From NCBI GenBank assembly GCA_030765065.1, contig CM060979.1, positions 13,917,001 to 13,981,000 of the forward strand: 64,000 nucleotides of DNA, given 5' to 3'. The DNA is from Deroplatys truncata. Lineage: Eukaryota > Arthropoda > Insecta > Mantodea > Mantidae. Under the pieces are notes generated by a model that worked only from the letters and a program-made list of their open reading frames with translations, searched no databases and had not been told where the DNA came from. Made by a program: the position numbers and the translations under genes. Of the stretch, positions 3,358-64,000 are shown piece after piece; within the stretch, counting starts at the first letter, position 1, and each line of letters begins with the position of its first letter.

Positions 3358-4320
3358 TTCACTCTTAGGTTGATCTGGGTCAAAACAAACCCCAGGTGAC
3401 CAGTGCACCGCTATAATGTATCCTTCTGCCATTCGCACTAGAAATACTGTCACACTTTCAGACCATGTGGCAAGTACAAGCAGCACGTAGTGCAAAAAAG
3501 AACAGAGTCCTTATTTTGACAACTGAAGTGGTGACTAGCATATTCTGTTAAGGGTTAAAGGTGATAAGATTGATAGTTGCAACAAAATAAACGTTTGCAC
3601 ATATAATAATAGTTAATTCTAAAATAAATGAACGAAAAATAAAGTAACAGGTATGTGATAACCTAATTTATTCGCTCTCTGGAAGCGGCACTTTATTAAC
3701 TGTTGACAGTTCATTTTAAAAAACAAATTGTTACGTAAAATTGCATTCTTCTTAAAATCACTACATTCTTGCATCGTGTATTTCATATGTTTTCTTCTTT
3801 TTCCGAGTGTAACCACTTTTCTCGTTTCAGATTTTTCTGCACAAGCACTGTTTATACTTGTACTCGAAACACCGGTGAACTCAGAAGTTAATTTCACCAT
3901 TTCTTTCGCGGAAAGTGTTGGATATTTCTCACATAACTTATAATAAAGATTCACCACTAGTCAATGGTTTGCGTGGCTAATGCTTTACGTAATTCGACGA
4001 AAACACAAAAGCAAATTCACCATCCGCCAGATACTAAACACAACTGCTGGTTTCTGGCTGTAAACAATATTCTGCGCCTACCCGGATGTCAGGTGACTCA
4101 TACGAATTGCGTCATGAGACTTGTAGCTCTGTTTTACGGTATAAATCAGCGTTAAATAAAACCTAGGTATTTGTATAGAATATTATACTATTTAAGGATA
4201 AATTCATTCTAAAATTCAGAGATTAGCATGGGACTACTTTCCTGGGTGCATTGCTGCCGTGTTGCACCACGGTGCACTGACCACGTGGGTTGTTTTGCCG
4301 CGGATCAACCTAAGAGTGAA
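3358..4320 (-). mobile_element. TIR DNA transposon relic (Tc1/IS630-like), copy 1
   Basis: Inverted ends begin TTCACTCTTAGGTTGATC and end GATCAACCTAAGAGTGAA, with TA on both sides (3356-3357, 4321-4322). On the minus strand (3957 downwards) a 112-codon frame reads NLYYKLCEKYPTLSAKEMVK, then TGVSSTSINSA and SDFKKNAILRN. This looks like the N-terminal helix-turn-helix of a Tc1/IS630-like transposase. No catalytic region follows. A shorter copy in opposite orientation sits at 25481-26252. Positions 4321-4680 hold nothing recognisable. Confidence 0.75.
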
Positions 4321-5229: not shown

Positions 5230-6735
5230 TGTTGTTGTTCACCAATGGCACTGGGGATTAATTGATCTGCATCATTTTCCCTCTGGCTTCCCAATATAAA
5301 GTCTGTAAGTTATCACTTTTAAGGCTTTTGCATTTGGCGAGATGATGTTTGTTCCAGATGACATCTCCTTTACACAGAGTGCACTTGGGTGTAGGTAAGC
5401 ATCGTATCTTGTAAAGATGTTCTGCAAGGCAATCGTGGCCACTTGCCATCCTAAATAAGGCCACTGCAGTCTTCCTTGGCATTTTTTGTATATCAACTCT
5501 ATCTTTAATAGTCTTATAATCTTTATCCTTTAATTTATCTTCTTCATCAAGTCTCTGCTGTCTTTTGAAATGTTGTTTAATGTTATTTAATTGTTTATTT
5601 ATTTCTATTTGTCCTACGGGTTTTATTTGTTGTATTGCACCTTTCTTTGCTAATTGATCCACATGTTCATTGCCCAAAAATCCAACATGAGCTGGGATCG
5701 ATTGTAGAGTGACATGATTTCTAGTTTCAACTGCTTTAATTAGGCTTCTTATTTCTTTAATATTTCTTGTTGTTTTATTATTGTAGTTTACTATTCCATC
5801 TATGGCTGATTTTGAGTCTGATAAGATGACTATTTTTAGTTTTATGTATGGTCTATATAAAATGTTCTGTAATGCTGCTTTTATAGCTGTTAATTCTCCA
5901 TCATAGTGGTTTGACATTTCATCTAATGTTAGATACTGTGCAAAATGTTTACAGTATGCTCCTGCACTGGCATTTTTTTTATTGATGAGGGATCCATCTG
6001 TATATATTTGGAGCCATTCTTTTTCTGGGTATCTTTCATTTTCCGTAGCTATTGCTATGGCTCTCATTTCATCTGGTATATTGTTTTGTTTGTGTATTGT
6101 GTGTATCAGGTCATTCTGATATTGTATATCAATATATTCTATTGGACTCATTACCTCTGTTGCAATTATATTTGTTGTAATTATATTCTTGTATTTTAAT
6201 TTATTAATATATGTTCTGAAGCTTATTTGAGTTTTTAAATTACTTACAGTATCTGCTGTGTGGTACCACTTGTATCTGTTTCTATTGACTTGCAGTTTTT
6301 GTGCTAGAGTAATTGCTTTCAACTCGTGTTCCAATTCTATAGCCATGTTTTTTGTGAAGCTTTGTAGTACTGTAATTGGTGTTGTTTTTACAGCTCCTGT
6401 TATTATTCTTAGTGAATTATTTTGTGAAATCTCTTGTTTAATGTTGCTAGTAGTTCTCCTCCATACAATAGGTTAGGTTTTATATATGTTTTATATGTAT
6501 TATTAAGGAGGTCCATGTTTCCACCCCATTTTATTCCTGATAAACGTTTTAAAATGTTGTTTTTGTTAATTTTATTTGTTACATTGTTTACATGTTCAGA
6601 AAATATATGTCGTATTATTCTGTATGCATTTACTGCACACCACACACCAATTTTCATGTCACATAAGAGAGTCTGATGTGTAAAATCGTAAAATACGGAA
6701 CGTAACCATGTAAATGGAACCATGTTTTGCCAGAG
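5230..6735 (-). mobile_element. 5'-truncated LINE with RNase H domain
   Basis: The minus strand encodes the 3' half of a non-LTR retrotransposon ORF2. Residues from 6723 down give the end of the reverse transcriptase (KRLSGIKWGGNMDLLNNTYK, then YIKPNLLYGGE). The frame 6346-5258 gives an RNase H domain: IYTDGSLINKKNASAGAY with the first Asp, DGELTAIKAAL with the Glu, ILSDSKSAIDG with the second Asp, and IPAHVGFLGNEHVDQLAK with His and the last Asp. A Cys/His motif near the end (CTLCKGDVIWNKHHLAKC) follows. RNase H after RT points to the I/R1-type group. The two parts are in different frames, so the copy is dead. A diverged relative lies at 20163-22165. Confidence 0.85.
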
Positions 6736-7553: not shown

Positions 7554-7917
7554 GTAAGAGAAGTACTTTTTATTCTGCTTTAGATTTGTTGTTGCTGCCA
7601 TTATCATCTCCTCCTCCTCTTCTTCCTTCCCTTCCCTCTTTACTTTTATATATGTTTTACAAGGGGTGGTCATAAAGTTTAATTATCACCTCGAAAAAAT
7701 CAAGTTGCGACCATGAAACTTGATGATGGTGTTAGCACCCTTCAATGTGAGTATGTCTTGGCCGAGACCTTGATTGTAGAAGTCTGCATTTTGGCTTTTC
7801 AGGAAACGAGAATACAGGGGGGGGAAGCATGTGTGACACTGTCCTGTGCCGAATAAGCTGTAACATTGTCATGGAGGAAAAAGATACCCTTGAACAGCTT
7901 CCTGTGAACTGTGTCAT

Positions 7918-9353
7918 TGACTAATTTTGAAGATTTAAAAGCTAGTAACAGTGATGTGTCATAATTTAAAATAAGGAGTGGTAATAATTCTTCTTTTGGT
8001 ATGGTTGGGAAGAATGTAGTGACATCAAGTCTGTGGGTGATATATTTATATCTGAATGGTGACTGGTTAATTCTAATGAATTTGATAATTTTTGATGTGG
8101 TATGTAGTGGTAATAAAATTTTAGTGATGTAGTGTAACAACCTTCATTCCATCACAAAATCTTTAAACAAACCTCAGGCCTAACTATGGGAAACCCCCTT
8201 TCACCATTTTTAGCAGAACTATATATGAGCCATTTTGAATGCCATATTACTCAATCTTTCCCACATCTATTCAAAACCTGGTATAGGTATGTAGATGATA
8301 TTTTTGCTATTGTTCCAAAAAAACTTTCAGAAGATGCTTTGAAATTATTAAATTTACAAAAAAGGTCTATTAAATTCACAATAGAAAAAGAAGAAAATGG
8401 CCAATTACCTTACCTAGACATCAGGATCATCAGAAATAATGCACACAACAAACTAACGTTCGGCATTTACAGAAAACCAACGCACCAGAAAATTATATTA
8501 AAAACAATAGCTACAATCCTACAAGCCACAAACATGCAATTTTAAATAGTATTACAAACAGGTTAGTACATATACCAATGGAGAAAGTGGAATACCAGAA
8601 AGAATACCAACACATTATCAACATAGCCACTATGAATGGATAGCAGAAAAAAACAATAGATAGAAGATAAAGTTTGAAAGACAGAAATACATCCAACAAA
8701 CGACTACTTTACTCAGACAACAAAAACCACAAGCATATAGGAAATTCACTTACCACCCTTGGACACATCATAAATTTCAAAGGATTTTCAAGAAATACAA
8801 CATCACCCTGTCTCCACAGAATAACCACAATATACAGAAACTACTATGCAACAGAACAAAAGATCCTATCCCCAATGAAAAATTGGCTGGTATATATCAA
8901 ATTGTTTGTAATGACTGTAACCTGGTATACATAGGAAGAACCAAAAGAAATCTTGAAATAAGACTTAAAGAGCATATGAGATGCATTTACCAAAAGCAGC
9001 CAGATAAATCAGCAGTAGCACATCATTTCTGGTCTTCAAACCATGATATCACTCCAAACATAAAACTCTTAAAACCGATCAACAGCAGCAATGAATTGGA
9101 CATCCGGGAAAAAATACATATTGTCAAACACAGGAATCACCTAATGAATTCCGAACTGCCACCACCCAGCAGCCTTTGGAGGTTCATCAACCCGGGACCA
9201 GAGAACACCACTAGCCACACACATTCCCCAGACAATAACCGACAAAATCAGTTGAGGAGATGCTGACGATGGAAGCAAACCGTCTCCTGAAACGTGTTCA
9301 AGTAAGAACATTTTAGTGATGTAGTGTAACAACCTTCAAGTCTCTTTGTTTTA
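7918..9353 (+). mobile_element. Penelope-like element copy 1 (PLE1)
   Basis: Flanked by an 11-bp imperfect duplication (AACTGTGTCAT at 7907-7917, AACTTTGTCAT at 9354-9364). It begins TGACTAATTTTGAAG like the other PLE copies. The reverse-transcriptase part (8186-8508) has GNPLSPFLAELYMSHFE and WYRYVDDIFAI with the YVDD catalytic pair. The C-terminus (8883-9266) is a GIY-YIG endonuclease: GIYQIVCNDCNLVYIGRTKR, then RLKEHMRC and DKSAVAHHF. At 7930-8142 a piece with DVTTFFPTIPKEELLPLL, the first catalytic Asp region, lies inverted. The direct repeat GTGATGTAGTGTAACAACC occurs at both 8124-8142 and 9315-9333. The copy is rearranged and inactive. Confidence 0.85.
9263..9300 (+). other. Hammerhead-like motif at the 3' end of PLE1
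   Basis: CTGACGA, then T, a GGA...TCC stem, GAAA, and a near-palindromic ACGTGT followed by TC. This is the order of a type I hammerhead core (CUGANGA, stem II, GAAA, stem III, UH). This copy is worn; compare 58451-58488. Confidence 0.45.
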
Positions 9354-10364
9354 AACTTTGTCATGTTTAAAATGATGTGCAAGATGTTAAAAACTGATTT
9401 TCACATTTTCCAATCTCCTTGATTGTGATACGCCGGTCTTGGAGCACCATTTCCTCCACTTCTCTTGAGATTCCCAGTTCTTCGCAGAGAGATGGTCAGT
9501 CACTTTGTTCTTCGTCATTCAAAGTTGTTTGACCACACTGAAAGTGTCTGAGCATCTGACTACTGTGTCATATGATGGTGCATTGTTGCCATACACTTCC
9601 ACCAACTCAGCATGGATTGTTGCAGTGTTGTAGAAAATGAATTACTGCACGATAGCTCACTTTATCAATGGGGTGCGCCATTTTGTTTTGACTCCTCTAG
9701 TAGTATGCTGCGCTACTGTGGCGCAGGCATCTAAATTGTACCGGGACTGCATACAGGTACATGCAAACAAAAAAAAAAAAAAAAATATGTGTATATATAT
9801 ATATAACTTTCTTTTTTCGAGGTGATAATTAAAACTTTATGACCACCCCTCGTACTTGTATACTATCACCTTTAACATGGAAGGCTATATTGGGACTTTG
9901 ACCTTAGAAACAATTGCTCAATGCAGTGATGTTCATTTATTTTATATTTGGTTCATACCATTGGGTTTTTACTTCTCCAAGTTTTAAACTTTGAGTTAAC
10001 ATACAATTCAAACATTTCTGTAGGGGAAGGGTTCTAATCCCTTCAAGTGTAGTGGTGTAGGCAGTACCCACTCATGGTACTTCTGATGTCACTAGAAGTG
10101 CATTGCGCCCAACATCTGAGTCCCCTCCCTCCCTCCAGTTGGGGAGTTGTTTGGATTGGGTTGGACTCGGCAGGGAAGTGGTTCCCAACTTCCATTTGAG
10201 ATTGGGTGTGTTTGGGCAGTAATGTTTGCGGGTTGTGAAATGCCTCAACGACCTCTGGTACCAGGCTAGACAGCTACGAGATGGTGAGCTAGAACACTGT
10301 GCCCCCTTGGAGGTTCTCCTTTGGCGTTTATACACCTAAGTGGTGTATCCACTTCTGTCATGAC

Positions 10365-17672: not shown

Positions 17673-17684
17673 TTAAATACCTCT

Positions 17685-17800
17685 TTTTTTTTTTTATATA
17701 TATATATTTATTTTAAAATAAAGAGAGTTGAGGGTTGTTACACTACATCACTAAAATCACATCACTGTTACTAGCTTCTAAATCTTCAAAAAAGTCAATT
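17685..17800 (-). mobile_element. Solo Penelope-end mini-insertion, copy 1
   Basis: On the minus strand it reads TTGACTTTTTTGAAGATTTA, then GAAGCTAGTAACAGTGATGT, a second ...TTTTAGTGATGTAGTGTAAC, CAACCCTCAACTCTC and an A/T-rich tail ending in A's. These are only the 5' end and the 3' end of the local PLE, joined directly. It is flanked by TTAAATACCTCT (17673-17684) and TTAAATGCCTCT (17801-17812), a 12-bp target-site duplication with one mismatch. No coding sequence. Confidence 0.75.
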
Positions 17801-17922
17801 AAATGCCTCTACTACATATGCAGTTGACAGCAATTGGAATGCTGTCAACTATGCATCAAATTTGAATAAAAGTTGCATTACAAATGTAGAATCAGACTGA
17901 AAAATTCAATGCCATAGCTGGG

Positions 17923-18057: not shown

Positions 18058-19171
18058 ACTTTCTCTACTATGTAGAGAAAGTATGGGAAGTATTGTATTT
18101 CACCCAAAAATTTGATACCGAGTTTTCACCAGAGTTGAGTTTTTTTTTTTTTTTTATTTATGAACGCTCTTTAACTACTATGGTTATTAGCGTCCCATTG
18201 TATATTGGGCGTGAAACACCTGTAATTTTGCTCAGAGGCCTCTTTATCAGGCTTGAGGTTCTTTTACGTGCCGTAAATCTACGACACGGGACCACCGGCT
18301 TTACTTCCCTTCCGAAGGAAGCCGTGCTAACGATTTTTACGCCCGAAAAAATCCATCGCCCTCCGCCGGTTTTGAACCGCGACCTTGGGAACTAGAGGCT
18401 AGCACGGTACCACCAGTCCACGGAGGACGACTAATTTTCACCAGAAATGCATCTTTTGAGGCGCCCTGAATCCAAATAAAGCATTTTTGGAAATATGTCC
18501 ATGTGCATGTGTGCGCGTGCGCATAACTTAAAAACAAAAAGCTGGATAAATATGAAACTTAGTACTTGAGTTTATGATCTTCCAAGGATGCGACATGAGG
18601 ATTTTCAAGAAAATCCCTCCTACCCCAGACTACCCTTTACATGGAACATTTTTTGAAAATTTTGAGTTTCTTAAAAATGGCTCGTTACGATTTTGATTAA
18701 AACATTATATATTTAAGATATTTTCATGGCAAATGAAATGTGTATTTTGAATTTTCTAGGAATGTCCCCAAAAGTCCTCTTCATTCTGAATGACTTTTGC
18801 ATAACTGATAAACCATAAGAGGTAGACAAAATTTTACCACACAAAAAATTTAGATCTTTGTTAAAACACCAATTTATTATCATATACTATTTTTTTTTGG
18901 TAGAGTCAATACTTATACTTTTTCTCAAATGGGATTTGTTATTCGTTTTTTGTTATATCCTGGACATACAAAGAGAATGGAATGCGCCACATAGCAACCA
19001 GCTCTTAAAATATTTGACTATCAGTTAAAGCTTACCATATTCCCCTTGCACCTACAAGAAAATTAGCAATAAGATTAACATCTCGATTAACATGAAGCAT
19101 ATGGAGAATAAGCGTTTGTAAAAATAGTTTGTACAAGAGTAGAGAAAGTCATGTGAGTGCAATACATCAGT
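18058..19171 (+). repeat. Repeat R copy 3, carrying a SINE
   Basis: It starts after a T6 run with ACTTTCTCTAC, TAT, GTAGAGAAAGT, a perfect hairpin, and ends AGTAGAGAAAGTCATGTGAG followed by CATCAG. A family-1 SINE (18134-18434) interrupts it. Outside the SINE it is colinear with the other copies. Confidence 0.85.
18134..18434 (-). mobile_element. SINE family 1, full copy with TSD
   Basis: A tRNA-like head (about 18365-18434 on the minus strand), a body with TTTACGGCACGTAAAAGAAC, and an A-rich tail (T17 on the + strand). Flanked by TTTTCACCAGA at 18123-18133 and 18435-18445, an 11-bp duplication. It sits inside repeat R copy 3. Confidence 0.85.
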
Positions 19172-31554: not shown

Positions 31555-32739
31555 TGATGGTCACTCCAAAAGTTTTGAGAATGGATGCAATAAAATATTA
31601 AACATTTCGATCTGATCATTGCATCTTTTCAAAATATTCTCCATTGCATTCTATATATACCGCCTCATCCTTTCAAACCATTTTTCAAATGCTGAACGCC
31701 ACTCTTCTTTAGAGAGAGTTCAAGTGCGTTCTTCGTAGGCAGCTTCAGGTGACTCAAATCATTCACCTGAAATTTTTTTCTTTCATTTTGGGGAATAGAA
31801 AAAAGTAGCATGGGGCCAGATCTGGACTGTAGGAAGGATGGGACAAGTATCTGGATTGTTTCTTGTGCTGTGTGGGCAGAGGCATTGTCAAGGTGCAACA
31901 AAATTCCACAAAGACCAGTCTTAGGACGCTTTTTTCTCAGTTCATTGAACACTTGTAGCAGACATTTTGTGGTGTACCATCTGGCAGTAAGAGTCTTTTG
32001 TCCTTCAAGTGGAATTGTCACAATGTGGCCACTTGCTGAGAAGAAGGAACAGATCTATCTTCTTGTCAACTCTTCTTGTTCGCACTTTTGTTGGGGGATC
32101 CTCTCCTGGGAAGACCCACACCAATGACTGTCGTTTAGTTTCTGCATCATACTGGTAAATGCAGCTTTTGTCACATGTTACAATGTTAAATATGTTTTGG
32201 GATCTTCCTCCAGTAAATTTTTCAATCATTTCCTGGCACCATTGCACACGTGCTTGTTTCTGCTCATTTGTGAGGTGGTGGGGATCCAGCGACTGCAGAA
32301 CTTCCTGACGTCAAGTTTTTCTTTCAGGATTGTTTTCACTGCTGCCGATCCAATATTTAGGGCTTCTTGAATCCAACCATATGTGCAACGATGATCTTCC
32401 TGCTTGGTCTCCATCTTCGATGGAATCCCTTCCTCTTGTAAACTCTGCATACCATCAATAAATCATGGGCAAAGATCCCCAAATGCACAATGCAGTCTTT
32501 CAAAGCATTCTCTCTCTCCTAAACCGACTTTAAAGTCGTAGAAAATTGTAGCTCGGAAATGCTCTCACTTGAGGTCCATCCAAACGTATGGTGTAGCAAC
32601 ATCTGTTATACATACATATGCGCACATTGTTGGAGCACGCCCAGACTTGCTATCTGAACTTCAATCTGAAGTTAGGAAAAGCTGTTTGGCTTACAAGTAC
32701 TCATTGTTGCCCATTCTCAAAACTTTCAGAGTGACACCA
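31555..32739 (-). mobile_element. Mariner with TIRs, decayed
   Basis: Inverted ends include AAAGTTTTGAGAATGG at the left and CCATTCTCAAAACTTT at the right, and TA flanks both sides (31553-31554, 32740-32741). Minus-strand fragments in order: YGWIQEALNIGSAAVKTILK (N-terminal helix-turn-helix), CDKSCIYQYDAETKRQS (first catalytic Asp region, TGDETW degraded), and LHLDNASAHTAQETIQ (second Asp). The third Asp region is frameshifted. At 1185 bp it is close to full size but dead. Confidence 0.85.
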
Positions 32740-41330: not shown

Positions 41331-41786
41331 AGAAGGAAGAAAACTTCCAGCACATTTATTTGATGAGCATCTTCCCAATTTCAAGTACTTATGGATTTGG
41401 CATATTTAGTGAGGTCTTCCAGGTTTCAAGTACTACTGACTCGGATAGTTTAGGCAGCTTTCTTTGTTCCATATATCACCATTATAAATGTCTCAAAGAA
41501 ACTGTTGTAGTTCTGTGTGTCCCACATAAAACCAGTATGCCTCACTGTGTTCACATTTACAATTTGGCTACACTGCACTCCGTTTTTAAGAGTTCACCAG
41601 TTGAGTTTTAAGAGTAGCTTTCATGAATATCGTGGAAATGTTTAGTTTTAGGTTGAATACCGAATTGATGTTGTAGAATTTTATATAAAGACTCCATAAA
41701 GGAGACTAAAGAAATGTTTCATGCAAAATATCCTGGTATCAAGATCCCCACAAGATCTGTATAAGAAATGGAGCACCAGAGGATAT

Positions 41787-42289
41787 TGACTAATTTTGAA
41801 GATTTAGAAGCTAGTAACAGTCATGTGTCATAATTTAAGATAAAGAGAATTGAGGGTTGTTAAACTACATCAATAAAATATTCTTACTTGAACGCATTTT
41901 GGGAGACGGTTTGTTCCCATCGTCAGCATGTTCTCAACTGATGTTTCCGGTCATCGTCTGGGGGATGTGTGTGGCTAGTGGTGTTCTCTGGTGCTGCGCT
42001 GATGAACCTCCAAAGGCTGCTGGTGGCGGCAGTTCGAGATTCATTAGGTGATTCCTGTGTTTGACAATATGTATTTTTTCCCAGATGTCCAATTCATTGC
42101 TGCTGTTGATCGGTTTTAAGAGTTTTATGTTTGGAGTGATATGGTTTGAAGACCAGAAATGATGTGCTACTGCTGATTTATCTGGCTGCTTTTGGTAAAT
42201 GCATCTCATATGCTCTTTAAGTCTCATTTTAAGATTTCAAATTGATTGTAATGAATGTAACCTGGTATACATAGGAAGAACCAAAAGAG
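41787..42289. mobile_element. Penelope-like element copy 2 (PLE2), rearranged
   Basis: The left part is the PLE 5' unit (TGACTAATTTTGAAGATTTA, + orientation) joined to the inverted 3' end. 41934-42227 on the minus strand encodes RLKEHMRCIYQKQPDKSAVA and the C-terminus of the GIY-YIG protein. At about 42236 orientation flips: 42240-42289 reads NECNLVYIGRTKR on the + strand. An internal inversion like this is common for retroelement 5' ends. Confidence 0.8.
41888..41926 (-). other. Hammerhead-like motif in PLE2
   Basis: Minus strand: CTGACGA, T, GGGA, loop, TCCC, AAAA (GAAA expected), palindromic-type TGCGTT, C. Matches 58451-58488 apart from the G of the GAAA box. Confidence 0.45.
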
Positions 42290-43545
42290 ATTTCTTTCAT
42301 TCTTACCTAGGCTGTACATGCAGTGTTCCTTCCCGATAAAAATGAGAAGTCACGTGACTTCCTGTGACCATGCAGTGATGAGGTAGACGCTCTGAAGTGA
42401 ACATGTGTTTTGCGTGTGTTGCGATTTTTCCGCATAGCAAAAATGTCAGATTACAAAGAACAAAGAACGAACATAAAATTTTGCTTTAAACTCGCTAAAA
42501 CTGCAACAGAAGCCTATGGAATGTTAAGAACAGCTTATGGGGAGGAAGTTATGGGCAAAAGTCAAGCATTTGAGTGGTTTTCGAAATTTAAAAGTGATGT
42601 GACATCAGTACCCTGTTCCAGCAAAACTGATGAAAATATCAATCAGGTGAGGGAAATGGTCTTAAATGATAGGCGCATTACAATAAGAGAACTTTCTGAC
42701 TCATTAGGACTCTCTTTTGGAAGTGTTCAAAGCATTTTGAAAGACAATTTGGACATGAGAAGAATTGCTGCCAAGTTCATGCCCTGCCTGCTTTCAAATA
42801 ACCAAAAGGAAAGCCATGTGATTGCCTGCACAGATCTTAAAGAACAGCTACAAAATGACCCACAGTTTATGGAGAAAATTATTACTGGTGATGAAACATG
42901 GATTTATGGGTACGATCCAGAAACGAAGCAACAATCTTCACAATGGAAGAGTCCTTCTTGTCCATGCCCGAAAAAGGCCAGACAAGTTCGATCCAAAGTG
43001 AAGTCAATGATGATTGTGTTTTTTGACATTAAAGGCATTGTACATAAGGAATTTGTGCCACAGGATCAAACAGTGAATCAAGTGTTCTACAAACAAGTGC
43101 TGCAAAGATTAAGGGAGAATGTGCGACACAAACGGCTGGAGAAATGGAGGAGTGGTGACTGGTTCCTGCATCATGACAATGCGCCTGCGCACAAAGCCCT
43201 TTCTGTTCGCCAATTTTTGTATAAAAATAGGATGAATACTGTTCCCCATCCCGCCTGTTCTCCAGATTTGGCACTAGCGGACTTTTTTCTTTTCCCGCGA
43301 CTTAAAATACGGCTCCGAGGACACCGTTTTGAGGACATTGATGCTATCCATCGCGAATTGCAGAAGGCTCTGAACATATTGAAAGAAGAGGACTTCCAGT
43401 GATGCTTGTAGCAGTGGCAGAAGTGCTGGGACAAGCGTATCAACTCCCAAGGAGACTACTTCGAGGATGACACTGCAGATTAGACAAAACAAACTGTTGT
43501 GTAGTGTTTATGACGTCATTCTGGAAACTTTTTGATTACACCTCA
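42290..43545 (+). mobile_element. Near full-length mariner with long transposase frame
   Basis: The transposase starts at ATG 42443 (MSDYKEQRTNIKFCFKLAKT). A helix-turn-helix region includes ITIRELSDSLGLSFGSVQSI. The D,D34D triad is complete: TGDETWIYGYDPETK, HHDNAPAH, and CSPDLALADFFLFP, with 34 residues between the last two Asp. The frame stops at TGA 43400-43402; a TAG follows at 43409-43411, after which the same frame continues as WQKCWDKRINSQGDYFEDD to a stop at 43481-43483. So two nonsense changes near the C-terminus break it. The right end AACTTTTTGATTACACCTCA is followed by TA; I see no matching left terminal repeat, so the left end is probably truncated. Confidence 0.9.
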
Positions 43546-57940: not shown

Positions 57941-58450
57941 ATGACTGCGGCTATAGGAACATGACTATTGCGGGAGGGGGCGATGATTTCAAAGAACAGT
58001 TCATAGCTTTGCAATTAAATAGAACTGGAGGACAGTGGGGTCTAAAGCAAGAAGGCCGAAATAGATTCTGCTGAACCATCTAAAGGAAGTGGTTCTGCAG
58101 GGAGCAAGAAGGCAGTGACGGCAGAGAGATGAACTTGTGTCAGTTGTTGAGAATGAAGATTCACATCGACTGCATGTCCATTTGGAACAAATTCCCAGCG
58201 AATCAAAATTCCACCACAGCATATTATTTTGGGACCGAACTGATTTGTTTAGTAGAAATGTTTGCAGGCTGACGGATATCGAGCCACTGTTTCCAGGTGT
58301 CAGGTTTGTAGTAATACACTTACTTTTCATCACATGTGACAATTCTGCTGATAAATCTATTATCCCAGGGATTATCAATAAGCCGACAATAAATATTCAA
58401 GATAAAGAGAGTTGAGGGTTGTTACACTACATCACTAAAATATTCTTACT

Positions 58451-58488
58451 TGAATGCATTTCGGGAGATGGCTTGTTCCCATCGTCAG
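58451..58488 (-). other. Hammerhead-like motif, 3' end of PLE3
   Basis: Minus strand: CTGACGA, T, GGGA, loop, TCCC, GAAA, palindromic ATGCAT, T, C. All elements of a type I hammerhead core are in order. Stem III is a short palindrome, as described for dimer-acting hammerheads in Penelope-like elements. Confidence 0.5.
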
Positions 58489-59194
58489 CATGTTCTCAAC
58501 TGATGTTTCCGGTCATCGTCTGGGGGATGTGTGTGGCTAGCGGTGTTCTCTGGTGCTGGGCTGATGAACCTCCAAAGGCTGCTGGGTGGCGGCAGTTCGA
58601 AATTTATTAGGTGATTCCTGTGTTTGACAATATGTATTTTTTCCCAGATGTCCAATTCATTGCTGCTGTTGATCGGTTTTAAGAGTTTTATGTTCAGAGT
58701 GATATCATGGTTTGAAGACCAGAAATGATGTGCTACTGCTGATTTATCTGGCTGCTTTTGGTAAATGCATCTCATGTGTTCTTTAAGTCTTATTTCAAGA
58801 TTTGTTTTGGTTCTTCCTATGTATACCAGGTTACAGTTATTACAAACTATTTGATATATACCAGCTGATTTATCGTTGGGGATAGGATCTTTTGTTGTGT
58901 TGCATAGTAGTTTCTGTATATTGTGGTTATTCTGTGGAGACAGGGTGATGTTGTATTTCTTGAAAATCCTTTGAAATTTATGATGTGTCCAAGGGTGATA
59001 AGTGAATTTTCTATATGCTTGTGGTTTTTGTTGTCTGAGTAATGTAGTCATTTGTTGGATGTATTTCTGTCTTTCAAACCTTTTTATCTTCTTATCTATT
59101 GTTTTTTTCTGGTATCCATTCATAGTGGCTATGTTGATAATGTGTTGGTATTCTTTCTGGTATTCCTCTTTTTCCATTGGTATATGTACTAACC

Positions 59195-59268
59195 TTGACT
59201 AATTTTGAAGATTTAGAAGCTAGTAACAGTGATGTAGTGTAACAACCCTCAACTCTCTATTTTAAAAA
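59195..59268 (+). mobile_element. Solo Penelope-end mini-insertion, copy 2 (74 bp)
   Basis: Reads TTGACTAATTTTGAAGATTT, AGAAGCTAGTAACAGTGATG, TAGTGTAACAACCCTCAACT, CTCTATTTTAAAAA. It is flanked by ATGTACTAACC on both sides (59184-59194, 59269-59279), a perfect 11-bp duplication. The uninterrupted sequence is known from PLE1 (8560-8580), so the insertion is certain. It comprises the PLE 5' end fused to its 3' end. Confidence 0.85.
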
Positions 59269-60336
59269 ATGTACTAACCTGTTTGTAATACTATTTAAAA
59301 TTGCATGTTTGTGGCTTGTAGGATTGTAGCTGTTGTTTTTAATAAAATTTTCAGTGTGAGTTGGTTTTCTGTAACTGCCGGACGTTAGTTTGTTGTGTGC
59401 ATTATTTCTGATGATCCTGATGTCTAGGTAAGGTAATTGGCCAGTTTCTTCTTTTTCTATTGTGAATTTAATAGATCTTTTTTGTAAATTTAATAATTTC
59501 AAAGCATCTTCTGAACAACCCTCAACTCTCTTTATCTTAAATTATGACACATCACTGTTACTAGCTTCTAAATCTTCAAAATTAGTCAATAAATATTCAC
59601 TCTACGTTGAGCTTGATCAAGTATCAATTCATGTGGTATACATTTACAGCTCCTGAATGTTTTTTTAAGTGTCTTAATATGAAGATGTATGGTATCTTTT
59701 GAAACACCAAGTTCTTCTAACAACCTCCGAGTGCTTGTCTGTGAATTTTCTTCCAAAAATCTGCATGTGTTCTCAATATTCCATAACTTGGGTCTTCCAG
59801 AACATTGTAAACATTTAATATTTTCGTCTCTGTTATTGAAACGTTGGAGCCATCGTGCTGCTCGCTCATTAATGACATATTCACCTTCGGCTTCATATAT
59901 TCTTCGAGCCAGCAGCAGCTTTATAATCTTGCTTCCAGTAGTGCTTCAGAAGAACTCTAACCTCAAACTTTGTTGCCTCCATTTTAAAATCTTGTATTAC
60001 CAACTGCTGGCTGTCAGTATGTTAACAATACAGGACAATAATCAAATCCCCCTATAAATGGTATTGACAACAATAAAAGCATGTATACACAAGATGTAAA
60101 CCCAATTAAAAAACTGACATTACTTATGAGACAACCTAATAGTAAATTTCTGTTTCAAAAAAGAATACCATTTCATCCAAGGGAAAAAACTTTTTGCACT
60201 TTGGTCTTGTGCCATATACTTGGAATCCTGTTCCTGAGCCATTCTTTGAGCTGTCTTAACTGCATCAAAGTTTTCTCAGGAGTTTCCAGAAACATTATTG
60301 ACTAAATTGTTTGGATTGGAAACACATGAGTTCATT

Positions 60337-60460: not shown

Positions 60461-61699
60461 CGAGGGTGGTCTGAAAAGTTTCCAACCTAATAAAGATACA
60501 AGACATTTTTTCAGAAATTGTTTTTATTTTTCAACATAGTCTCCTTGTAACTCTACACGCTTCTCCCAGTGATGCTGCCATATCTGTAACCCGTCCAAAT
60601 AGTACTCGGCGTTTTTCTCTGCAAAATAATTGTTCACGAAGGTGATTGCCTGTTCATTTGACGAAAATCTCTGTCCTCCGAGCGCAATTTTCAGATGAGG
60701 GAACAAAAAGAAGTCGCTTGGGACTAGATCTGGTGAGTAAGGTGGATGGTCAAGCAGTTCAAACCGTAATTCGTGGATTTTCGCCATTGCAACCGCTGAG
60801 GTGTGAGACGATGCGTTGTCTTGGTGAAACAGGATTTTCTTTTTCTGCAAATGTGGCCGTTTTTCTGCAAGTTCTGCCTTCAGCTTGTCAAGTAATGATG
60901 CATAGTATGCTTCTGTAATGGCTTGTCCTTTTTGAAGATAATCGATTAAAATAACTCCATGACTATCCCAAAAAACAGTTGCCATCACTTTCCCAGCCGA
61001 AAAAACAGTTTTTGCTTTTTTTGGAGCCGGTTCCCCCTTTGCAGTCCATTGTTTGGACTGTATTTTTGTTTCGGGCGTATAATGGTGTATCCAAGCTTCA
61101 TCTACAGTAATTAATCGGCGCCAAAACAGAGCGTTGGAAATGTTCATTCGAACAGTTTTTGTCAAACGTGAGCAAACGCGGCACGCAATGTGCGGACAGC
61201 TTTCTCATGTCTAAATGTTGATTTAATATGTGACAAACACATTCTTTTGACATGTTCATAGCCTCTGCTATCTCTCTCACTTTAATTTGGCGGTCGTCTA
61301 GCACCATTTGGTGAACTTTGGCGATGTTTTCGACGGTAGTTGCAATTTTTTGACGTCCCGAACGTTTGTCTCCCAAACTCTTACGGCCACATTTAAACTC
61401 AGCTGCCCAAAATTTCACTGTGATAAATGATGGTGCAGAGTCCCCATACACAGAATCCAACTCATCTTTGATTTGCATAGGCGTATTGCCTTTCAAAAAC
61501 AAATATTTAATGACAGCTCGATACTCGATTTTGTCCATTTTCATAAAAACACTTGCGTCACCTCACTCAAACGACTGTTACATAACAGCTGAAACTTTGG
61601 TGAGTAACTGTCAACAGATGAACAATGAAATTCACGAGCTTTTATTTACGAGTGCTGCCATATTCATGTTGATGTCGGAAACTTTTCAGACCACCCTCG
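60461..61699 (-). mobile_element. Complete-ended mariner, frameshifted transposase
   Basis: CGAGGGTGGTCTGAAAAGTT and AACTTTTCAGACCACCCTCG inverted ends, TA at 60459-60460 and 61700-61701; 1239 bp. The transposase N-terminus (61544 down) starts MKMDKIEYRAVIKYLFLKGN, with helix-turn-helix pieces IKVREIAEAMNMSKECVCHI. The C-terminal part (61165-60524) holds TVDEAWIHHYTPETK, FHQDNASSHTS and YSPDLVPSDFFLFP: all three catalytic Asp are present. The two halves are in different frames, so one frameshift near 61100-61165 is the main lesion. A fragment of the same family lies at 40991-41330. Confidence 0.9.
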
Positions 61700-62008: not shown

Positions 62009-62216
62009 TGATGACAGCCTAGGATACGAATTTCCATTTGTACTGAAGGCTGTACAGAAAGATGGTACCCAGTGTGCATGGTGCCCATGGTACAGGTTTT
62101 GTCGTGGGTGTCGAATACAGTGTTGTGATGCAGAATTTAATTTTGGAAGTAGTTATCTCGCCATTGACTGGGATCCAACAGCTTTACATCTTCGATACCA
62201 GACTTCGCAAGAGAAG
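62009..62216 (+). CDS. USP32: USP32 internal exon E (Cys-rich segment)
   Basis: The exon is 208 bases, with acceptor CCTTTCAG|TGATGAC and donor GAGAAG|GTGAGA. The first base completes the Cys codon begun in the previous exon and the exon ends in phase 0. It reads DDSLGYEFPF, then CAWCPWYRFCRGC and DWDPTALHLRYQTSQEK, nearly identical to human USP32 (recalled DDSMGYQYPF, CAWCPWYRFCRGC, DWDPTALHLRYQTSQER). The two CxxC pairs, CAWC and CRGC, resemble the metal-binding cysteines found in this part of many USP catalytic domains. The catalytic His box lies further on; no following exon is seen before the window ends, where the remaining 1.8 kb is mostly an LTR-like relic. Confidence 0.95.
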
Positions 62217-62465
62217 GTGAGATATAGTACAACATTTATGATGGACTTCAGTGGAATTTGCATAAGTTTTGTTTTCAATAGGAGGTTTGTTTATTACACT
62301 GAAGTTTGGCATTTAAATGTTTAAGCATTTAACAAAGAAAACTTATATAATTCTCATAAAAACTCTGTCTTGTTTTGCCTTTCTCTACTATTCTATTTTG
62401 GTATATATTCTGATGAATTGCAAGTACAACTTTTATTTCATACTAATTATACTTTAAAGATGTTG

Positions 62466-63904: not shown

Positions 63905-64000
63905 GGGTGTTGTCCTCCATGGTGTAGTGGTTACCATGCTAGCCTCTAGTTCCCGAGGTCATGGTTTCAAACCTGGTGGAGGGTGATAGATTTTTTCGGT
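63905..64000 (+). mobile_element. SINE family 1 head, cut by window end
   Basis: GTTGTCCTCCATGGTGTAGT, then GGTTACCATGCTAGCCTCTA (A-box side), a B-box TGGTTTCAAACCTGG and the first body bases GGAGGGTGATAGATTTTTTC. It would continue beyond the window. 63601-63904 shows nothing else. Confidence 0.85.

Follow-up and report, generated by a model that had tools for sequence, protein, structure and literature searches.

A 74-bp insert in a Penelope-like element of the mantis Deroplatys truncata, probably a minimal double-primed insertion

The window, the whole stretch of 64,000 nucleotides of Deroplatys truncata DNA analysed here, contains an insert of exactly 74 bp. The insert resides in a copy of a Penelope-like element (PLE), called PLE3, between the RT and the GIY-YIG coding sequences. 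The repeated flanks form a perfect 11-bp duplication, or 12 bp if the next, shared T is counted, and none of 400 random flank pairs taken within the window equalled its score. A retroposed insert of this size, perfectly duplicated at its borders and located within PLE3, had been claimed in an earlier note on this DNA, and is borne out. The features of the locus are the following.

59184..59194, plus strand: left target-site duplication ATGTACTAACC, 11 bp, identical to the right one
59195..59235, plus strand: tail arm, 41 nt antisense to the PLE tail, beginning TTGACT, with matches to three PLE copies
59228..59235, plus strand: joint AGTGATGT, 8-nt microhomology found in both halves
59228..59268, plus strand: sense arm, end of the pLTR/3'UTR, ending TATTTTAAAAA; 100% match over 31 nt, and a profile match
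59269..59279, plus strand: right target-site duplication ATGTACTAACC, identical to the left one
58395..59589, minus strand: PLE3, the host element; antisense tail and pLTR piece, then sense truncated RT, GIY-YIG and pLTR
59587-59599 and 58387-58399: PLE3 duplication TGAATATTTATTG; 1 of 400 random pairs as good

In BLAST searches within the window, bases 1–41 of the 74-mer match the outer ends of PLEs (100% at 59589-59549, 98% at 7917-7957 and at 41786-41826), and bases 34–64 match the end of a PLE 3'UTR (58436-58406, minus strand; 100% over 31 nt, with weaker matches elsewhere). The unit is made by 41 nt antisense to the PLE tail, joined to about 41 nt of the pLTR end, and the 8 nt AGTGATGT, common to both halves, represent the overlap at the joint. 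Some details differ from those initially proposed. The left part, described as the first 38 bp of the PLE, is indeed a PLE end, but measures 41 nt and is antisense to the tail, not a sense 5' end. The joint falls, as stated, at a repeat found in both PLE ends, which is one nucleotide longer than the heptamer AGTGATG originally indicated. The terminal A run is seen as an A-rich end in some copies, but is not common to all solos, as the two-ended units of this kind are called here. Larger PLE copies use the same two ends, the tail and the pLTR 3' end, which supports the view that the unit is built of PLE ends and that the PLE machinery is the likely agent. The 74-mer is very probably the product of a Penelope-like retroelement insertion.

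The family was assigned to PLEs because RT and GIY-YIG endonuclease domains are recognised in relatives within the window (Pfam RVT_1, 1.6e-07, at 8138-8545; GIY-YIG, 4.2e-06 and 6.3e-06, at 8664-9266 and 58485-59198). No relatives were found in phage, viral-contig and prokaryote collections. Other copies in the window are listed below.

7917..9355, plus strand: PLE1; antisense tail, antisense RT piece, pLTR piece, then sense RT, GIY-YIG and pLTR
PLE1 duplication AACTGTGTCAT/AACTTTGTCAT; 6 of 400 random pairs as good
41786..42291, plus strand: copy 3; the tail is followed by pLTR and GIY-YIG in antisense, and these by a short GIY-YIG piece in sense; a duplication was looked for and not found (236 of 400 random pairs scored as well)
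17711..17798, minus strand: second solo, S2; joint GATGTG/ATTTTAG, A/T-rich tail to 17685
17799-17810 and 17673-17684: S2 duplications AGAGGCATTTAA/AGAGGTATTTAA, 11 of 12 positions alike; 1 of 400 random pairs as good

The PLE1 arrangement is read here as a template jump. The solo S2, absent from the earlier note, has a joint which differs from that of the 74-mer, being 14 nt longer. In S2 (17673-17810, minus strand) a long A/T-rich 3' tail, missing from most other solos, separates the pLTR end from the duplication.

The PLE tail measures 48 nt in the D. truncata family. In copy 3, viewed in the sense direction, it comes directly after the pLTR. At two genomic places (L136 and L137) the sequence continues beyond the tail, as judged by eye, for about 70 nt to a frame opening with ATGGAG, which places the tail between the pLTR and the ORF; the ATGGAG frame is probably the start of the PLE ORF. 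PLE sequences continuing past the tail (TAATTTGGACTTACAAGTCTA...AAGAAGC) to the same frame were observed at L035, L067, L086, L097, L136 and L137. The location of the tail inside the RT-coding region, an idea raised by the antisense arm of PLE1, which contains an open frame, found no Pfam or PDB support, and was rejected because the ATGGAG frame following the tail in L136 and L137 fits the published pLTR-ORF position. The TTGACT end may correspond to a distal RT start site, and the TTTTAAA end to a proximal one.

The source genome, of 4.29 Gb, was searched for solos. At least 66 BLAST matches to the 74-mer were obtained, counted from 40 scored of 226 candidates. The joint of the 74-mer was found, with up to 2 mismatches, in 9 places, 7 of which are solos; the other two (L016 and L017) are not tail-pLTR fusions of the solo kind, and were dropped. 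Exact tail-pLTR fusions with 0–30 nt between the two parts number 32, and feature 25 joint strings, including a few that are distinguished by allele alone; a reversed control gave none. The set of 36 solos analyzed is not a random one: 32 derive from the fusion pattern, L015 from the joint search, and L019, L020 and L038, which have no row in the joint table, from the BLAST list; L018, L021, L024, L031 and L035 were excluded. In 31 of the 36 solos the duplication scores higher than 99% of 300 mismatched flank pairs, so that the search for further solo copies with their own duplications, suggested in the earlier note, was successful. Five solos (L012, L038, L060, L067, L074) have no duplication above the threshold; the L038 duplication was truncated by the scoring window, and measures 12 nt by eye. 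The 200-bp flanks of the 36 solos match in a single pair, L067/L074, and the match is probably due to PLE sequence. Given the diversity of the joints, the presence of own duplications, and flanks matching in one pair only, solos are mostly separate insertions, each with its own joint.

The copy number of a joint tracks its microhomology. The joint of the 74-mer, with 8 nt or more, occurs seven times, one 5-nt joint three times, and all the others, with 3 nt or less, only once. In several joints filler sequences are found, or microhomology is missing, and annealing is therefore not always the route. Among 336 joint strings enumerated for one consensus allele pair, that of the 74-mer is the only one with 8-nt microhomology, which reaches 11 nt with some pLTR alleles. 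L061 and L072 look like one joint on two alleles.

A second sample was selected by the tail alone. The tail 32-mer is matched exactly at 4,094 places in the genome; the sample includes the first 60 regions in list order, all from one contig (62 places), 461 bases each, from 100 matches listed, and the choice was independent of structure beyond the presence of a tail. In 58 of the 60 regions the tail reads as an insertion end, as the preceding bases differ between loci. When the 52-base left flanks were compared all against all, L086 and L097 matched well (95% over 41 bases, PLE sequence), L102 and L112 weakly. Within the stretch read, 34 of the 60 regions have a duplication that scores higher than 99% of 200 mismatched pairs; the remaining 26 run beyond the stretch, have changed duplications, or have none. 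Since mismatched pairs scored up to 13 in the solo test, a value equal to many true ones, and up to 12 in the tail sample, a lone duplication may be due to chance. The 34 insertions flanked by duplications enclose 54–332 bp, and six of them no more than 120 bp (54, 56, 63, 89, 102 and 116). A second tail was found in none of these 34 tail-selected insertions. Three opposed tail pairs occur among the 100 listed places (L086 with L137, L097 with L138, and L136). Each has one tail continuing into PLE sequence, so none of the three is shown to be two-tailed; the L097 copy was seen at the near end only. The idea that the second start site halts the tail cDNA, hinted at by the solo joint table, was also considered and rejected, as tail arms in the sample end over a continuum; the apparent halt is, at least in part, an effect of the search pattern.

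In vitro, a PLE of Anolis cuts and extends both target strands, and reverse transcription begins at two adjacent internal RNA sites, the tail being the stretch between them (PMC11167929). The PLE arrangement is pLTR, optional short tail and inverted pLTR, according to the accessible part of PMC3846280. Against this background, the 74-mer is best viewed, with good though not full confidence, as a minimal double-primed PLE insertion. The PLE protein would cut the two target strands at sites some 12 bp from each other. One strand would prime, by its 3' end, at the distal RNA start site, yielding a cDNA beginning TTGACT (the tail), and the other strand would prime at the proximal site, 48 nt upstream in the RNA, yielding an untailed pLTR end. 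The cDNAs would often measure hundreds of bases, and many would extend to the apparent RNA 5' end at AGUUGAG. In the 74-mer both would measure about 41 nt only, and their 3' ends, complementary over AGTGATGT, would anneal and be sealed, leaving a dead stub between duplications. Architecture, duplications, joint recurrence, joint diversity and size range are all seen in the D. truncata sequence, and the 74-mer belongs to a range that goes from 54-bp stubs to inverted pairs larger than 1 kb. The usage of two start sites, one per target strand, in a single event, and the annealing step, are suggested by the sequences and by analogy with the Anolis element. It may also be, although the odds seem slightly against it, that one RNP assigns its two adjacent start sites one to each cut strand, dispenses with the usual second-strand step, and joins two first-strand cDNA ends. 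An obligate complex of this type, one-tailed and one-untailed, would give no two-tailed insertion, as found for the 34 insertions of the tail-selected sample, and stubs like the 74-mer would then be its shortest fossils.

The same structure could originate from a normal PLE insertion whose interior was later removed, through recombination or slippage involving the copies of AGTGATGT near both ends. An 8-nt direct repeat is found near both ends of typical insertions, the joint of the 74-mer is located exactly there, and a deletion at the repeat would leave the same scar as direct joining, and account for the seven copies of the joint. For the 74-mer copy itself a later deletion is possible. Other solo joints, however, feature 5 nt (one string, three copies), 0–3 nt, or filler, and stubs of 54–63 bp lacking the second copy of the repeat carry duplications (14/15 in L116, 12/12 in L092 and L129), hence such stubs arise without the repeat. 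Later deletion is accordingly held to be unlikely, and double priming the preferred explanation.

The earlier note had proposed a minimal mobile RNA, smaller than known SINEs and presumably moved by the PLE machinery; it would be a SINE-like transcript of about 75 nt, acted on in trans by the PLE protein. The core of ID elements measures about 75 nt. Seven places share the same joint, and six of the seven have a duplication above the null. Solos resemble SINEs, being short, retroposed, flanked by duplications, and A-rich at one end in some copies. If one unit had spread, the seven same-joint solos should form a lineage. Outside the joint, their mean distance is 0.155, compared with 0.110 for random sevens among 32 solos, and 98.3% of 5,000 random sets of seven are at or below 0.155 (L074, L019, L020 and L038 were left out, and the alignment holds a few flank bases). 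The closest relative of six of the seven carries another joint, while the seventh (L012) ties between both kinds. The pLTR allele varies among the seven solos (CTCTCTATTTT and CTCTCTTTATTTT), and larger PLE copies have both forms as well. Being no more alike than random sevens, they are not copies of one unit, and the repeated joint is better explained by recurrence through microhomology than by descent. The idea of a mobile RNA is not sustained: joints are too diverse (25 strings in 32 exact fusions), the same-joint solos are ungrouped and set on more than one PLE allele background, and insertions vary from 54 to 332 bp. A small-RNA head derived from tRNA, 7SL or 5S RNA was not found in the window, by Rfam at gathering score (one sub-threshold, unrelated hit falls near the insert) or by ARAGORN, which detects no tRNA; nor was a set of many copies sharing a joint by descent found among solos, or any sign that the unit replicates. 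Joint diversity and the allele test led to setting aside the mobile RNA, or SINE, as highly improbable.

Even less credit can be given to the view that the 74-mer is a retrozyme, one of the small retroelements, akin to PLEs, that carry a hammerhead. In its favour, PLEs are reported to contain hammerheads (PMC11167929), larger copies have a hammerhead-like core (CTGACGATGGGAAC...GAAACGCGTTC) immediately 5' of the pLTR, and animal retrozymes are likewise small, non-autonomous and retroposed. But solos are devoid of the core, Rfam gave no hammerhead match even at relaxed thresholds, and the 74-mer is not tandem and is far shorter than the RNAs of about 170–400 nt described in the accessible part of PMC7229834.

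Double-primed stubs share many traits with known systems. Penelope-type PLEs similarly feature RT and GIY-YIG relatives, a 30–50 bp tail at one end and head-to-head pLTR pieces (PMC11167929; accessible part of PMC3846280). Their published duplications measure 8–10 bp in the same part of PMC3846280, those scored here mostly 10–16 bp, and microhomology is seen at some joints in both. In contrast to Penelope-type insertions, the interior of the stubs is wholly missing, and two cDNAs, putatively from the two start sites, are joined directly. The accessible part of PMC3846280 speaks of solo pLTRs that lack duplications, and of duplication-flanked solo pLTRs that have captured foreign sequences between them, not of two-ended stubs of 54–116 bp. 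In L1 twin or dual priming, as described in the portion of PMC2837659 available, two inverted cDNAs are likewise made from opposite target strands and lie between duplications. Inverted element pieces between duplications, a trait of twin-priming products, are found in larger PLE copies, and the solo keeps the two ends. In contrast to L1, PLE primers appear to use fixed internal RNA start sites, and the double-ended form is common. Moreover, no significant microhomology is reported at internal L1 joints in the same portion of that study, whereas recurrent PLE joints have it. Thus machinery and anatomy are known from PLEs, and the two-primer logic resembles that of L1 twin/dual priming. A description of stubs made by two start-site ends, of their joint statistics, or of the absence of two-tailed forms was not found in the open-licence literature searched, mostly as titles and openings of abstracts. 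According to PMC11167929, experiments have still to validate the later steps of PLE insertion. Stubs may serve as natural records of PLE integration, telling which start sites were paired, how long the cDNAs were, and in what way their ends were sealed; as one genome contains 4,094 exact tail matches, the question may be approached by counting. This reading also corrects the tempting idea of a new, tiny mobile RNA.

The hammerhead-like core (CTGACGATGGGAAC...CCCGAAACGCGTTC) is located at the end of the GIY-YIG frame, just 5' of the pLTR, at 9263-9310 (plus strand) and 58488-58440 (minus strand) in the window, and was also observed in L022, L023, L032, L033, L036 and L037. Among arms of the tail-selected sample which reach the core, AGTTGAG (one mismatch allowed) marks, to within about 7 nt, the end of 11 of the 14 sense arms, the other 3 continuing beyond it, and 13 of 18 antisense arms, in the author's reading, stop at AGTTGAG and 5 continue. 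Arms stopping at AGTTGAG within TCAGTTGAG were seen in L085, L099, L101, L104, L111, L113 and L122. L101 and L111 end at AGTTGAG directly on the duplication. Both are apparently single-armed: the tailed cDNA extends to the putative RNA 5' end and is followed by the right duplication, with no sense arm. On sequence grounds, AGTTGAG in the genomic TCAGTTGAG, presumably similar to an arthropod initiator, may be the usual 5' end of PLE RNA. Some joints (L046, L061, L072, L103) begin at or beside CAAGTAAG, which, speculatively, could be where the hammerhead-like core cuts, although Rfam gives no hammerhead match.

Other features mark the window. An exon-like frame at about 62010-62220 (plus strand) is taken to resemble a ubiquitin protease, which Pfam does not confirm. 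Repeats similar to tRNAs (GGTTTTGAACC...) are found at 18304, 28091 and 37023 (81-nt family D19), and at 63920-63990; ARAGORN finds no tRNA, and the repeats are possibly tRNA-derived SINEs. A 404-aa frame with an RNase H domain (5258-6472, minus strand; Pfam 8.6e-17) is probably the end of a non-LTR element. Mariner-type transposase frames are found at 42401-43402 (plus strand), 60524-61562 (minus strand) and 31665-32054 (minus strand). The assignment is based on Pfam for 42401-43402 and 60524-61204, on resemblance for 31665-32054; the frame at 42401 is open, and measures 333 aa.
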